From Gaetbulibacter sp. S0825 (GTDB taxonomy: Bacteria > Bacteroidota > Bacteroidia > Flavobacteriales > Flavobacteriaceae): 64,000 nt of DNA. The notes under the pieces were generated by a model that saw only the letters and a list, made by a program, of their open reading frames with translations, was not told the DNA's origin and made no database searches. Shown piece after piece: positions 21,507-24,878 of this stretch. The position numbers and the translations under genes were made by a program. Every line of letters starts with the position of its first letter. Position 1 is the stretch's first letter. The stretch covers positions 372,001-436,000 of the forward strand of contig NZ_JAATJT010000001.1 in assembly GCF_011777505.1 (NCBI RefSeq), in the 5' to 3' direction.

Positions 21507-21543
21507 AAAAAAGCCTTACTCAATGCGAGTAAGGCTTTTTTTA
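21507..21543. terminator. Bidirectional terminator between aldo/keto reductase and RNase E/G genes
   Basis: Eleven-base-pair stem AAGCCTTACTC / GAGTAAGGCTT with a five-base loop, with A run upstream and T run downstream; serves both convergent genes and its T run reaches the rng stop codon. Confidence 0.88.
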
Positions 21544-23088
21544 TAATGTAATTACGTTACCATCTTTATCTTTAAAGTGGTACTCTAGATATGTGTAAGC
21601 ATCTCTTGGCAATATTTTTACCCATTTTTTATGTTCAAAATACCATTTTGAACGTTGTGATGGAAAACCTTTTGTTAAAAAGGCTGCTATAAAAGGATGT
21701 GTGTTTAATGTCACCTTTTTATAGTCTTTTTTAATAATTAAGTCCAGATCATGCTTGATTTTTTCAACAATCTTAATTGGTGCTTCCACTTCTTTGCCAT
21801 TAATACCATTAGGATCTTCCTCTCTGGTTTTAATTTTCATTTCAGGTCGTACACGCTGTCTGGTTATTTGTATCAATCCAAATTTACTTGGAGGTAAAAT
21901 TTTATGTTTTGCTCTATCATCTTTCATTTCCTCGCGAAGATGATTAAAGAGCTTCCTTCTATGGTCAGCCGTATTCATGTCGATAAAATCGATAACAATA
22001 ATGCCTCCCATATCACGTAAACGTAACTGTCTTGCTACTTCTGTTGCCGAAATTAAATTAACTTCTAGCGCTGTATCCTCTTGGTTTCTAGCTTTATTAG
22101 AGCGGTTTCCACTATTCACGTCTATAACATGAAGTGCTTCGGTGTGTTCTATCACCAAATATGCTCCTTTCGCCATAGAAACTGTTTTTCCAAAGGATGT
22201 TTTAATTTGTCTTTCTATTCCAAACTTTTCAAAAATTGGAACTTTAGACTGATACAACTTAACTATTGATTCTTTTTTTGGTGCAATTTCTTGCACGTAA
22301 TCTTTAATTTGAATGTAAAGCGATTCGTCATCTACTACTATTGAGGAAAAAGAATCATTAAATATGTCTCTTAAAATTGAAGAGGCTTTATTCATTTCTC
22401 CTAATACTTTACTTGGATGACTTGCTCTTTGTAGCTTTTTACACATTGCGACCCAACGGTCATACAAATTTTGTAAATCTTTATCTAGTTCTGCTACTTT
22501 TTTGCCTTCTGCTACAGTACGTACTATTACACCGAATCCTTTTGGTGTAATACTTTTTAATAATCGTTTTAATCTATCTTTTTCTTCTTTGCTTTCAATT
22601 TTTTGAGAAATTGAAATACGATCAGAAAAAGGGACCAACACCAAATATCTACCTGCAATGGATATTTCCGAGCTAATTCTCGGTCCTTTTGTAGAAATTG
22701 GTTCTTTAACTATTTGCACTAATGCAGATTGATTTGATTTTAAGGCGTCATTAATTTTGCCGTCTTTATCAATATCTTTTTCAAATGGGAAATCTTTTAA
22801 AGAGTAATCTTTAAGTTTACCTGTGCTTACACGTTTTATGAATTTTAAAAGGGAAGGGAGTTTAGGTCCTAAATCATGATAGTGCAAAAATGCATCTTTT
22901 TCATAGCCTACATTAACAAATGCAGCATTTAAACCTGGTACAGATTTTCGGATTTTGGCTAAAAACACATCACCAACCGAGAAATTACTGTCATCCTCAT
23001 CCTTTTGTAATTCAATAAGTTTTCCATCTTTTAATAAGGCAAAATCAACATTGTTTGAACTAGATCTAATGATCAATTCTTTATTCAT
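21541..23088 (-). CDS. rng: Ribonuclease E/G family
   Basis: 515 residues, the short RNase G-like form without the long RNase E C-terminal scaffold. N-terminal S1-like region (GDVFLAKIRKSVPGLNAAFVNVGYEKDAFLHYHDLG), then the RNase H-like/DNase I-like catalytic part with VIDVNSGNRS and IIVIDFIDMN, whose Asp residues bind the catalytic Mg, and the zinc-link/small domain region after KFGLIQITRQRVRPE. Processes rRNA precursors and initiates mRNA decay. The 5' leader contains a hairpin at 23102-23138. Upstream on the same strand are the small basic protein gene and HU, separated by a terminator. Confidence 0.93.
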   Translation of the reverse strand: MNKELIIRSSSNNVDFALLKDGKLIELQKDEDDSNFSVGDVFLAKIRKSVPGLNAAFVNVGYEKDAFLHYHDLGPKLPSLLKFIKRVSTGKLKDYSLKDFPFEKDIDKDGKINDALKSNQSALVQIVKEPISTKGPRISSEISIAGRYLVLVPFSDRISISQKIESKEEKDRLKRLLKSITPKGFGVIVRTVAEGKKVAELDKDLQNLYDRWVAMCKKLQRASHPSKVLGEMNKASSILRDIFNDSFSSIVVDDESLYIQIKDYVQEIAPKKESIVKLYQSKVPIFEKFGIERQIKTSFGKTVSMAKGAYLVIEHTEALHVIDVNSGNRSNKARNQEDTALEVNLISATEVARQLRLRDMGGIIVIDFIDMNTADHRRKLFNHLREEMKDDRAKHKILPPSKFGLIQITRQRVRPEMKIKTREEDPNGINGKEVEAPIKIVEKIKHDLDLIIKKDYKKVTLNTHPFIAAFLTKGFPSQRSKWYFEHKKWVKILPRDAYTYLEYHFKDKDGNVITL

Positions 23089-23101
23089 TTTGTTAATTTT
23101 T

Positions 23102-23138
23102 ATCCATCACGACCATTTTAATGTCACGACAGATGGAT
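23102..23138 (-). promoter_or_regulatory. Hairpin in the rng 5' leader
   Basis: ATCCATC (23102-23108) and GATGGAT (23132-23138) form a perfect 7-bp outer stem; the inside holds two copies of TCACGAC and can pair further around CAT/ATG with a bulge. It ends 13 bases before the rng start codon, so it would shape the leader of the mRNA for RNase E/G. Confidence 0.4.
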
Positions 23139-23251
23139 TAAACATATTATTTGATTCACAGGATTTTAATCCAGAAAATTCATGATTATGTTAGGTAGTA
23201 ACATAATTAATACATGAATTTGATATCAAAGAACGATTTTTAAATAAAACT

Positions 23252-23279
23252 GAAAAAGTAGTTTTGCAACTACTTTTTC
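23252..23279 (-). terminator. Terminator of the HU / 29-residue protein transcript
   Basis: Perfect 12-bp stem (23252-23263 with 23268-23279) and a four-base loop, three bases after the stop of the small gene at 23283, rich in T on the minus strand. Confidence 0.75.
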
Positions 23280-23282
23280 AAA

Positions 23283-23372
23283 TTATTTTTTCTTGTGACG
23301 ATTAGCGCGTCTTCTCTTTTTACGCTTATGCGTCGCTACCTTGTGTCTTTTACGTTTTTTACCACTTGGCAT
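23283..23372 (-). CDS. 29-residue very basic protein, candidate ribosome-associated
   Basis: Reading ATG at 23372 to TAA at 23283 gives MPSGKKRKRHKVATHKRK followed by KRRRANRHKKK: 29 residues, of which more than half are Lys, Arg or His and none are acidic. It lies 39 bp after the HU gene on the same strand and is followed at once by a perfect hairpin terminator, so it has its own place in a transcript. Composition is that of small ribosomal proteins (bL34-, bS-Thx- or bL36-like peptides). I recall similar unannotated peptides near HU genes of other Bacteroidota, and the Flavobacterium johnsoniae ribosome is reported to contain a novel protein, bL38; whether this is that protein is a guess. 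A short ORF by chance is unlikely given the codon pattern and context. Confidence 0.72.
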   Translation of the reverse strand: MPSGKKRKRHKVATHKRKKRRRANRHKKK

Positions 23373-23411
23373 AAATAATGTTTTTTTTAATTAATACTTT
23401 TTTTTAATGTC

Positions 23412-23702
23412 TTATTTAACTTCAACATTTGCTTTTACACCTTCTACAAATACTTTTGCAGGCTTAAATGCTGGAATGTTGTGTGCTGGAATTTTAATAG
23501 TCGTATTTTTTGAAATATTTCTACCTGTTTTCTCTGCTCTTGTTTTTACGATGAAACTACCAAATCCTCTTAAGTAAACGTTATCTCCTCCTTCTAAAGA
23601 GTTTTTAACTTCCGTCATAAAAGTTTCTACTGTTGCTTGTACATCTCCTTTTTCAATTCCTAATTTCTCAGAAATTTTAGCTACTATATCAGCCTTCGTC
23701 AT
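23412..23702 (-). CDS. hup: HU/IHF-family DNA-binding protein
   Basis: 96 residues. Helical N-terminal dimerisation half (MTKADIVAKISEKLGIEKGDVQATVETFMTEV), then the family signature RGFGSFIVKTRAEKTGRN and the DNA-embracing beta-arm with the intercalating-type Pro in KIPAHNIPAFKPAK. Dimeric histone-like nucleoid protein. Transcribed with the small basic gene downstream, divergently from mutY. A -7 box is at 23745-23752. Confidence 0.95.
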   Translation of the reverse strand: MTKADIVAKISEKLGIEKGDVQATVETFMTEVKNSLEGGDNVYLRGFGSFIVKTRAEKTGRNISKNTTIKIPAHNIPAFKPAKVFVEGVKANVEVK

Positions 23703-23744
23703 TGTTAATTATTTTTTAGGGTTATCTATTAATTCTAAGGGATG

Positions 23745-23752
23745 CAAATATA
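23745..23752 (-). promoter_or_regulatory. -7 promoter box TATATTTG of the HU gene
   Basis: Perfect TAnnTTTG on the minus strand; the expected start lies about 35 bases before the HU ATG at 23702. Confidence 0.6.
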
Positions 23753-23810
23753 TGTATTTTATATTCAATATTTCAAGCCTAAATCATTAAATTTTAACCC
23801 AATAAACGTT

Positions 23811-23818
23811 TATTTTTG
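23811..23818 (+). promoter_or_regulatory. -7 promoter box TATTTTTG of mutY
   Basis: Perfect TAnnTTTG ending 19 bases before the mutY ATG at 23838. It shows that in-frame starts upstream of it would not be on the transcript. Confidence 0.6.
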
Positions 23819-23837
23819 CAGCTCATATAATTTTAAA

Positions 23838-24878
23838 ATGATTTTTAATAAAATTTTAATTGATTGGTTCTCAGTACATAAACGTGAGTTGCCTTGGAGA
23901 AAAACTAAAAATCCTTATTTAATATGGCTATCTGAAATCATTTTACAACAAACGCAGATTAAACAAGGGTTGCCATATTATGAAGCTTTTGTGAGCAAAT
24001 TTCCAACTGTAAATACACTTGCAAATGCTGAAGAATCAGTGGTCTTAAAGTTATGGCAGGGTTTAGGGTATTATTCTAGAGCTAGAAATTTACATTTTTC
24101 AGCTAAATACATTTTAAATGAATTACAAGGTGAGTTTCCCAAAACTTATAAAGAACTCCTTAACCTAAAAGGTGTTGGTGATTATACCGCAAGCGCCATT
24201 GCTTCTATTTGCTACAACGAAGCAACTGCTGTGGTTGACGGAAATGTGTACAGGGTTTTATCAAGATATTTTAATATCGATACGCCAATTAATTCTACAA
24301 AAGGGATTAAAGAGTTTAAAGCTTTAGCGCAGCAGCTTCTCCCAAAAACCAATATTGGTGATTACAACCAAGCTATTATGGAATTTGGTGCTGTACAATG
24401 TAAACCAGCGAATCCAAATTGTAATGAATGCCCTCTACAAAATAGTTGTAAAGCTTTTGAACTAGATAAGATTAATTTGCTTCCTGTAAAGCTCAAAAAA
24501 ACAAAGGTTAGTAAAAAGTTTTTTAATTTTTTAGTATTCCTTTCTAACGATGGAAAAACTATTATCGAACAACGAACCGAAAAAGGTATTTGGAAAAACT
24601 TATATCAGTTTCCTTTAATCGAGTCAGAAAAAAGTTTAACAATAGATGAGCTAAAATCACATTCTGAAATTAAGGCTTTATTAAATGGTAATACATATGA
24701 ACTCAGTTTATATAACAACAACGCAATAATCCATAAACTATCACATCAACATTTGCATACAAAATTCTGGATTATTGAAACTCATAAGCTTCCAAAAGAG
24801 AGTATTCCAAAGTCTAAAATTAGACAATATCCAGTTCCTATATTAATTGGAAATTTTATTGAGCAATTTAATTTTTAA
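23838..24878 (+). CDS. mutY: A/G-specific adenine glycosylase
   Basis: 346 residues. The HhH-GPD glycosylase core shows SEIILQQTQIKQGLPYYEAFV with the catalytic-face Glu, the hairpin LKGVGDYTASAIASICY, and VVDGNVYRVLSR with the catalytic Asp. The 4Fe-4S cluster ligands follow as Cys-x6-Cys-x2-Cys-x5-Cys in CKPANPNCNECPLQNSC. The C-terminal ~120 residues are the NUDIX-like domain that reads 8-oxoguanine. It removes adenine opposite 8-oxoG. The start at 23838 (MIFNKILIDWF) is used; an earlier in-frame start would lie upstream of the promoter box. First gene of the mutY-ssb-gldE-gldD row known from other Flavobacteria. Confidence 0.95.
   Translation: MIFNKILIDWFSVHKRELPWRKTKNPYLIWLSEIILQQTQIKQGLPYYEAFVSKFPTVNTLANAEESVVLKLWQGLGYYSRARNLHFSAKYILNELQGEFPKTYKELLNLKGVGDYTASAIASICYNEATAVVDGNVYRVLSRYFNIDTPINSTKGIKEFKALAQQLLPKTNIGDYNQAIMEFGAVQCKPANPNCNECPLQNSCKAFELDKINLLPVKLKKTKVSKKFFNFLVFLSNDGKTIIEQRTEKGIWKNLYQFPLIESEKSLTIDELKSHSEIKALLNGNTYELSLYNNNAIIHKLSHQHLHTKFWIIETHKLPKESIPKSKIRQYPVPILIGNFIEQFNF

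Follow-up and report, generated by a model that had tools for sequence, protein, structure and literature searches.

The small ribosomal protein bS22 has been located on the ribosomes of F. johnsoniae, Borrelia and actinobacteria (PMC10618245, PMC10085706). As the passages on this protein describe it, Borrelia bS22 sits in a pocket of helices h2, h27, h44 and h45 of the 16S rRNA, contacts H68 of the 23S rRNA and is closer to the F. johnsoniae protein than to mycobacterial bS22 (PMC10618245). In the solved structures, bS22 has the shape of a short, bent helix close to the decoding site and provides an additional contact with the large subunit (PMC10618245, PMC10085706). The C. acnes protein occupies the same site and is 37% identical to F. 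johnsoniae bS22, and the known members of the class have about 28 to 33 residues, 55 to 65% of which are positively charged (PMC10085706; lengths also from the PDB chains). A distinct protein, bL38, belongs to the 50S subunit, lies near uL6 and is described by its beta strands (PMC10618245). In the account given in PMC6582356, mS38, the mitochondrial counterpart of bS22, is needed in yeast for the efficient formation of mitoribosomes and for initiation on certain mRNAs. According to PMC9976891, Bacteroidia keep their anti-Shine-Dalgarno sequence hidden.

Described leader RNAs also bear on the locus analyzed here. RNase E of Escherichia coli is controlled through its own 5′ UTR, while RNase E control outside E. 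coli is presented in the same source as largely unknown (PMC10989929). Outside rRNA, sites of the boxA type regulate suhB as well as a Citrobacter koseri gene (PMC5725501). A transcriptome of F. psychrophilum yielded 64 structured 5′ regions, and some conserved ones are named in the text as those of pheA, hisG, ftsY, acsA, alaS and rimP (PMC9723704).

A 29-residue frame behind HU

The stretch of DNA that was analyzed, referred to as the window, comprises 64,000 nucleotides from Gaetbulibacter sp. S0825 (Bacteroidota, Flavobacteriaceae). The part considered here contains the following genes and a hairpin:

23412..23702, minus strand: open reading frame for an HU/IHF-family DNA-binding protein, upstream of the bS22 frame, with 39 bp from stop to start
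23283..23372, minus strand: almost certainly the bS22 gene; ATG, 29 codons and TAA; translation MPSGKKRKRHKVATHKRKKRRRANRHKKK; PDB matches 7jil_5, 9i5v_10 and 8fmw_V
23250..23281, minus strand: hairpin resembling an intrinsic terminator, from a terminator scan and folding, directly after the bS22 stop
21541..23088, minus strand: rng, open reading frame for an Rne/Rng-family ribonuclease of 515 amino acids (TIGR00757 at 4.7e-122)

The preliminary description of this DNA had reported a frame that runs from ATG over 29 codons to TAA, encodes more than half basic and no acidic residues, lies behind HU on the same strand and is followed at once by a terminator hairpin. All of this was borne out: the minus strand carries the frame at precisely 23283-23372, HU is encoded on that strand as well, and a hairpin of 14 pairs (three of them G-C) begins one base after the TAA and leads into a U-rich tail. 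Counted on the translation, the peptide has 10 K, 7 R and 3 H, so that 20 of the 29 residues are K, R or H, and it has no D or E. With 29 residues, 17 of them K or R, it resembles bS22 in both length and charge.

A search of all PDB chains with the peptide (phmmer) returned 7jil_5 (28/29 residues identical, E 4.2e-11), 9i5v_10, an AURKAIP1/COX24 domain-containing protein (E 2.7e-8), and 8fmw_V, a Borrelia chain named "30S ribosomal protein bS22" (E 2.1e-6). A profile built from 18 relatives matched the same chains with E values of 3.5e-16, 4e-14 and 2e-10, respectively, and neither the single sequence nor the profile matched any other PDB chain up to E 10. No THX chain was among these three matches, so that no sequence relationship to bTHX was found. 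We take 7jil to be the ribosome structure of F. johnsoniae. This is consistent with the passages on F. johnsoniae bS22 in PMC10618245. The 7jil sequence carries two names in the PDB, "30S ribosomal protein S22" and "50S ribosomal protein L38", and the relatedness of the peptide to chains solved or named as bS22 is established through 8fmw_V and through 7jil_5 with its second name. The L38 name on 7jil and related entries is likely a label mix-up.

Pfam COX24_C (PF08213), a name carried by other bS22 proteins, gave no match to the window peptide and none in its own genome at an E value of ≤10; it matched 3 of the 18 relatives, with a best E value of 0.19. NCBIfam gave no match for the peptide or its relatives, and there was no bS22 match in the plasmid and phage collections. 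We call the peptide bS22 because of the PDB matches and because PMC10618245, in its passages on the two proteins, treats bL38 as a separate protein of the 50S subunit. A bS22 gene, encoding a small-subunit ribosomal protein, is by a very wide measure of confidence the best explanation of the 29-residue frame.

Conservation and neighborhood of bS22

A bS22 match was found in all 100 genomes of the family sample (one genome per genus) and in 289 of 296 sampled genomes of the phylum (E ≤ 1), one of these, G199, matching with an E value of only 0.06. Thus, almost all sampled genomes of the phylum have bS22, and the frame is confirmed as real, far beyond chance (289/296). Conservation of the amino acid sequence, which the preliminary description had proposed as a check, extends across the phylum, and the matches listed are of full or nearly full length and have no internal stop. 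Seven phylum genomes had no match in the first search. A second, profile-based search of these seven and of nine further genomes still gave no match in six of the seven and an E value of 1.41 in one, while that for G199 was 0.86. Genomes G227, G274 and G286 (genus g77) and G147, G195 and G199 (genus g97) showed no convincing match, and three other g77 genomes do have bS22; loss, divergence or a missing piece of sequence are possible explanations. The profile matches of two loci, L084 and L085, each include one TAG within the aligned stretch, possibly a stop near the variable end.

The same 29 residues are encoded at 42 of 79 loci by 41 distinct DNA sequences, which lie on average 14.6 of 87 bases apart; since these loci were chosen for protein identity, the silence of their differences follows from that choice. 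Of 261 possible single changes of the bS22 DNA, 210 would alter the protein or create a stop. What is notable is that silent changes accumulated in such numbers while the protein stayed as it was. At the other 37 loci the differences fall mostly at a few positions, and 23 positions are invariant in an 18-row alignment. The exact 7jil sequence is encoded at many family loci, and the window peptide is one residue off; on this basis we take the sampled phylum and family to be Bacteroidota and Flavobacteriaceae.

For the gene neighborhood, 80 loci were used, one of which (L065) is a placeholder without the gene, leaving 79. HU lies upstream of bS22 on the same strand at no fewer than 72 of these 79 loci and rng lies downstream on the same strand at no fewer than 66; both counts are lower bounds because the fetched flanks were limited. 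The HU frame of the window matches HU/IHF models with E values of up to 1.4e-18, yet it stays below their curated cutoffs. At the family loci HU directly adjoins bS22 and there is no room for a TPR-like gene between them. At five loci of distant lineages (L061, L066, L071, L075 and L077), the order is HU, a putative TPR gene and then bS22, and the distance between HU and bS22 is 102 bases in L063 and 176 bases in L080. The link between HU and bS22 seems to be old, since HU that is spaced or separated by a TPR gene recurs in distant lineages. A gene long linked to HU is easy to miss here because it is so short.

The hairpin behind bS22 accounts for two terminator-like sites, one on each strand, compared to a mean of 0.3 in shuffles of 23000-23900, and its fold has a z score of −5.7 relative to shuffled sequences. 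From the end of the frame to the boxA-like site described below, the mean fold z score is −4.2, with values below −2 at 46 of 52 loci. The hairpin core AGTAGTT..AACTACT, or a close form, is kept in the printed loci (noted for L003, L007, L016 and L044). In several relatives, the bS22 stop codon TAG falls inside the 5′ arm of the hairpin.

The preliminary description had suggested a ribosomal or nucleic acid-binding peptide and had brought up bL38. Its ribosomal part is upheld by the matches to chains of ribosome structures, while the bL38 guess is not. Identity with bL38, which in F. johnsoniae is a 50S protein placed beside uL6 and helices H95/H97 of the 23S rRNA, would be in keeping with one of the two PDB names on the 7jil sequence, "50S ribosomal protein L38". 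However, the Borrelia chain that is a clear relative of the peptide is named bS22, and the Borrelia paper names F. johnsoniae bS22 and F. johnsoniae bL38 apart and describes the latter by beta strands (PMC10618245, in its comparison of the two). On the strength of the PDB matches and of this source, bL38 was set aside in favor of bS22, and we regard it as very improbable. The company of HU (same strand, 72/79 loci) and the several distant lineages in which HU and bS22 flank one TPR-like gene could instead point to a nucleoid or nucleic acid-binding partner of HU. We give this reading hardly any credence: a nearly identical sequence has been solved within a ribosome, and 7 of the 79 loci have no HU match within the fetched flanks. 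A frame that is very short, of low-complexity composition and set in AT-rich surroundings might also have arisen by chance inside noncoding or regulatory DNA, but the protein is conserved across the phylum while its DNA drifts at silent sites. The phylum-wide matches and the silent-site drift refute this explanation, whose probability is negligible.

For the bS22 gene we propose the following. HU and bS22 probably form one transcription unit that would end at the hairpin behind the bS22 stop. The peptide would form a short, bent helix within the 30S pocket that 16S h2, h27, h44 and h45 make up and would touch the 23S RNA upon subunit joining. By filling the pocket and contacting the 23S RNA, bS22 may stabilize the decoding region and add an intersubunit contact. 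For S0825 itself, we infer both the use of this pocket and an effect of bS22 on translation from the ribosomes described in other organisms. The peptide is already known, and the 29-residue frame therefore represents ordinary biology; it adds little beyond the near-universal presence of bS22 in the sampled phylum. The leader of rng would matter more and is the part of the locus worth a further look.

The leader of rng

Between the hairpin behind bS22 and the rng start codon, the following features were assigned:

23226..23234, minus strand: boxA-like site GTTCTTTGA (motif GTTCWTTGA), start of the rng leader
23176..23221, minus strand: P1 hairpin of the leader, from the single-sequence fold; its arms differ among relatives with pairing kept
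23161..23172, minus strand: P2 hairpin, then TGTG; in S0825, GGAT with ATCC around four bases
23102..23134, minus strand: P3 hairpin with 12 pairs; 13 bases separate it from the rng start codon
23086..23177, minus strand: match of RNA model R1, from P2 to the rng start (E 1.1e-9)

The motif GTTCWTTGA occurs in the strip between bS22 and rng at 52 of 54 family loci, compared to 0.13 expected from single-base shuffles; it is absent in L036 and L041. One genus provides 14 of the 54 loci, and without it the motif is found in 38 of 40. This count was kept apart from six loci of another family of the order and six loci of the class outside the order, and the motif was found in none of either six.

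The 16S-23S spacer of the same genome contains, after tRNA-Ile and tRNA-Ala, the sequence GTTCATTGACATATTG, which we take to be a boxA because of its place and likeness; the rRNA spacer was read in this genome only. The leader copy GTTCTTTGATAT and the spacer sequence GTTCATTGACAT agree in 10 of 12 bases, making the leader site similar to this site of the genome's own rRNA operon, and GTTCATTGACAT itself is found in the leader at 6 of the 54 family loci. Only 25 of 52 single-sequence folds leave the site fully unpaired. Promoters of Bacteroidetes have a −7 element, and GTTCWTTGA was considered as such a promoter. Two observations led us to abandon this reading: 23 of 52 copies have the form GTTCATTGA, without TTTG, and the motif resembles the site in the rRNA spacer. 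A second match to the 13-base form of the motif in the same genome lies inside a putative integrase gene and was set aside.

After the boxA-like site, the leader has a mean fold z score of −3.8 over 52 loci, 41 of which are below −2, whereas the 145 bases upstream of bS22 at the same loci gave a mean of −0.35 with 2 of 52 below −2. The arms of P1 vary together in the single folds (GAGUUU/AAACUC, GGGUUUU/AAAACCC and AAAUUCA/UGAAUUU), and the helix is missing in some of these folds. In the minimum-energy fold of the S0825 leader, GGATTAAA pairs with the downstream TTTAATCC instead of forming P2; this pairing was rejected as a conserved helix, since the first of these segments reads GGGT in many relatives, whereas TTTAATCC is unchanged. 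With a 33-row alignment of leaders of up to 160 bases, RNAalifold detected no structure, and with a 16-row one it recovered P3 alone; the hairpin lengths vary.

Model R1 covers P2 and P3, without P1, and was built from 14 rows picked by hand from loci with a clear P2 and P3. It matched 44 of the 61 loci given to it, these being the loci up to L067 without L004, L009, L011, L013, L014 and L065. In the alignment fitted to R1, which is biased towards the structure of the model and on which the strong covariation rests, 87.9% of the cells pair (75.6% in P2 and 96.9% in P3), and 10 of 12 pairs show two-sided changes. None of 500 shuffles reached the observed value in any of five measures, and sliding the partners by one to three columns lowered pairing to 20 to 49%. 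The unfitted 14-row alignment gave a mixed picture. Two pairs with two-sided changes and seven further pair types were matched or exceeded by 322 and 365 of 500 shuffles, respectively, while nine cells with two-sided changes, compared to 4.0 in shuffles, were reached by 1 of 500 and the covariation score by 2 of 500.

R1 has a single match in its own genome at an E value of ≤0.01, and this copy is one of the 14 sequences from which the model was built. At the same threshold it matched 53 of 100 family genomes, 13 of which had contributed model sequences. Each genome has one match, always 59 to 216 bases downstream of bS22 on the same strand; the other 47 genomes had no match under the stricter filters. 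Taken together, it is well supported that the rng leader is conserved and structured in the family, with a boxA-like motif and three hairpins, two of which have measured covariation.

At the gathering score, Rfam gave no match in the 64-kb window, and only subthreshold ones lie near the leader. No description of an rng leader of this family was found in open papers, including passages of two catalogs of structured RNAs. Section 19 of PMC9723704 does not name rng among the structured 5′ regions; Table S7 of that paper may hold it.

These features suggest that the strip from about 23086 to 23234 on the minus strand may be an uncataloged leader RNA, made up of an rRNA-like boxA and three hairpins, that serves feedback on the level of the RNase E/G-family enzyme; we give this proposal an even chance. 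The feedback could involve the Nus (boxA) complex, the RNase itself as it cleaves or binds the leader, or both, and would couple rRNA synthesis with rRNA processing and RNA decay. The leader with its boxA would be transcribed either by polymerases that read through the bS22 terminator or from a separate promoter, and Nus factors or the RNase itself would then act on it and set the output of rng. The terminator behind bS22 would separate the leader from HU-bS22. By analogy, the rng leader may thus be a feedback leader for an enzyme of the RNase E/G type. If true, RNA decay would be coupled directly to the machinery of rRNA antitermination by way of a boxA that precedes an RNase gene.

Comparison with described systems

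The closest described relative of the peptide is chain 5 of 7jil (also 9oz9, 9ozn, 9ozz and 9p0e), taken as F. johnsoniae bS22. The two share 28 of 29 aligned residues; the window peptide has R21 where 7jil has A, and 7jil has one extra terminal lysine. Borrelia burgdorferi bS22 (8fmw chain V) belongs to the same length class and has the core THKRKK.RR.NRHKK in common with the peptide, but its gene starts with GUG and is described as unannotated in Borrelia (PMC10618245). Actinobacterial bS22, mitochondrial mS38 (AURKAIP1, Cox24) and eL41 are placed in the same or a similar 30S site by the passages on them in PMC10618245, PMC10085706 and PMC6582356; in contrast to these, the window peptide lacks a Pfam COX24_C match, and the 3 of 18 relatives that have one do not go beyond E 0.19.

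In E. coli, the Rne/Rng-family gene rne is likewise preceded by a structured leader, its 5′ UTR, for which feedback has been described (PMC10989929). The rng leader, for which regulation is predicted, differs in that the window has no Rfam family at the gathering score. In the suhB leader of E. coli, too, a boxA that is not part of rRNA precedes a gene (PMC5725501). In the window, the gene in question encodes an RNase, and hairpins follow the boxA-like site, which is a putative site for NusB/NusE.
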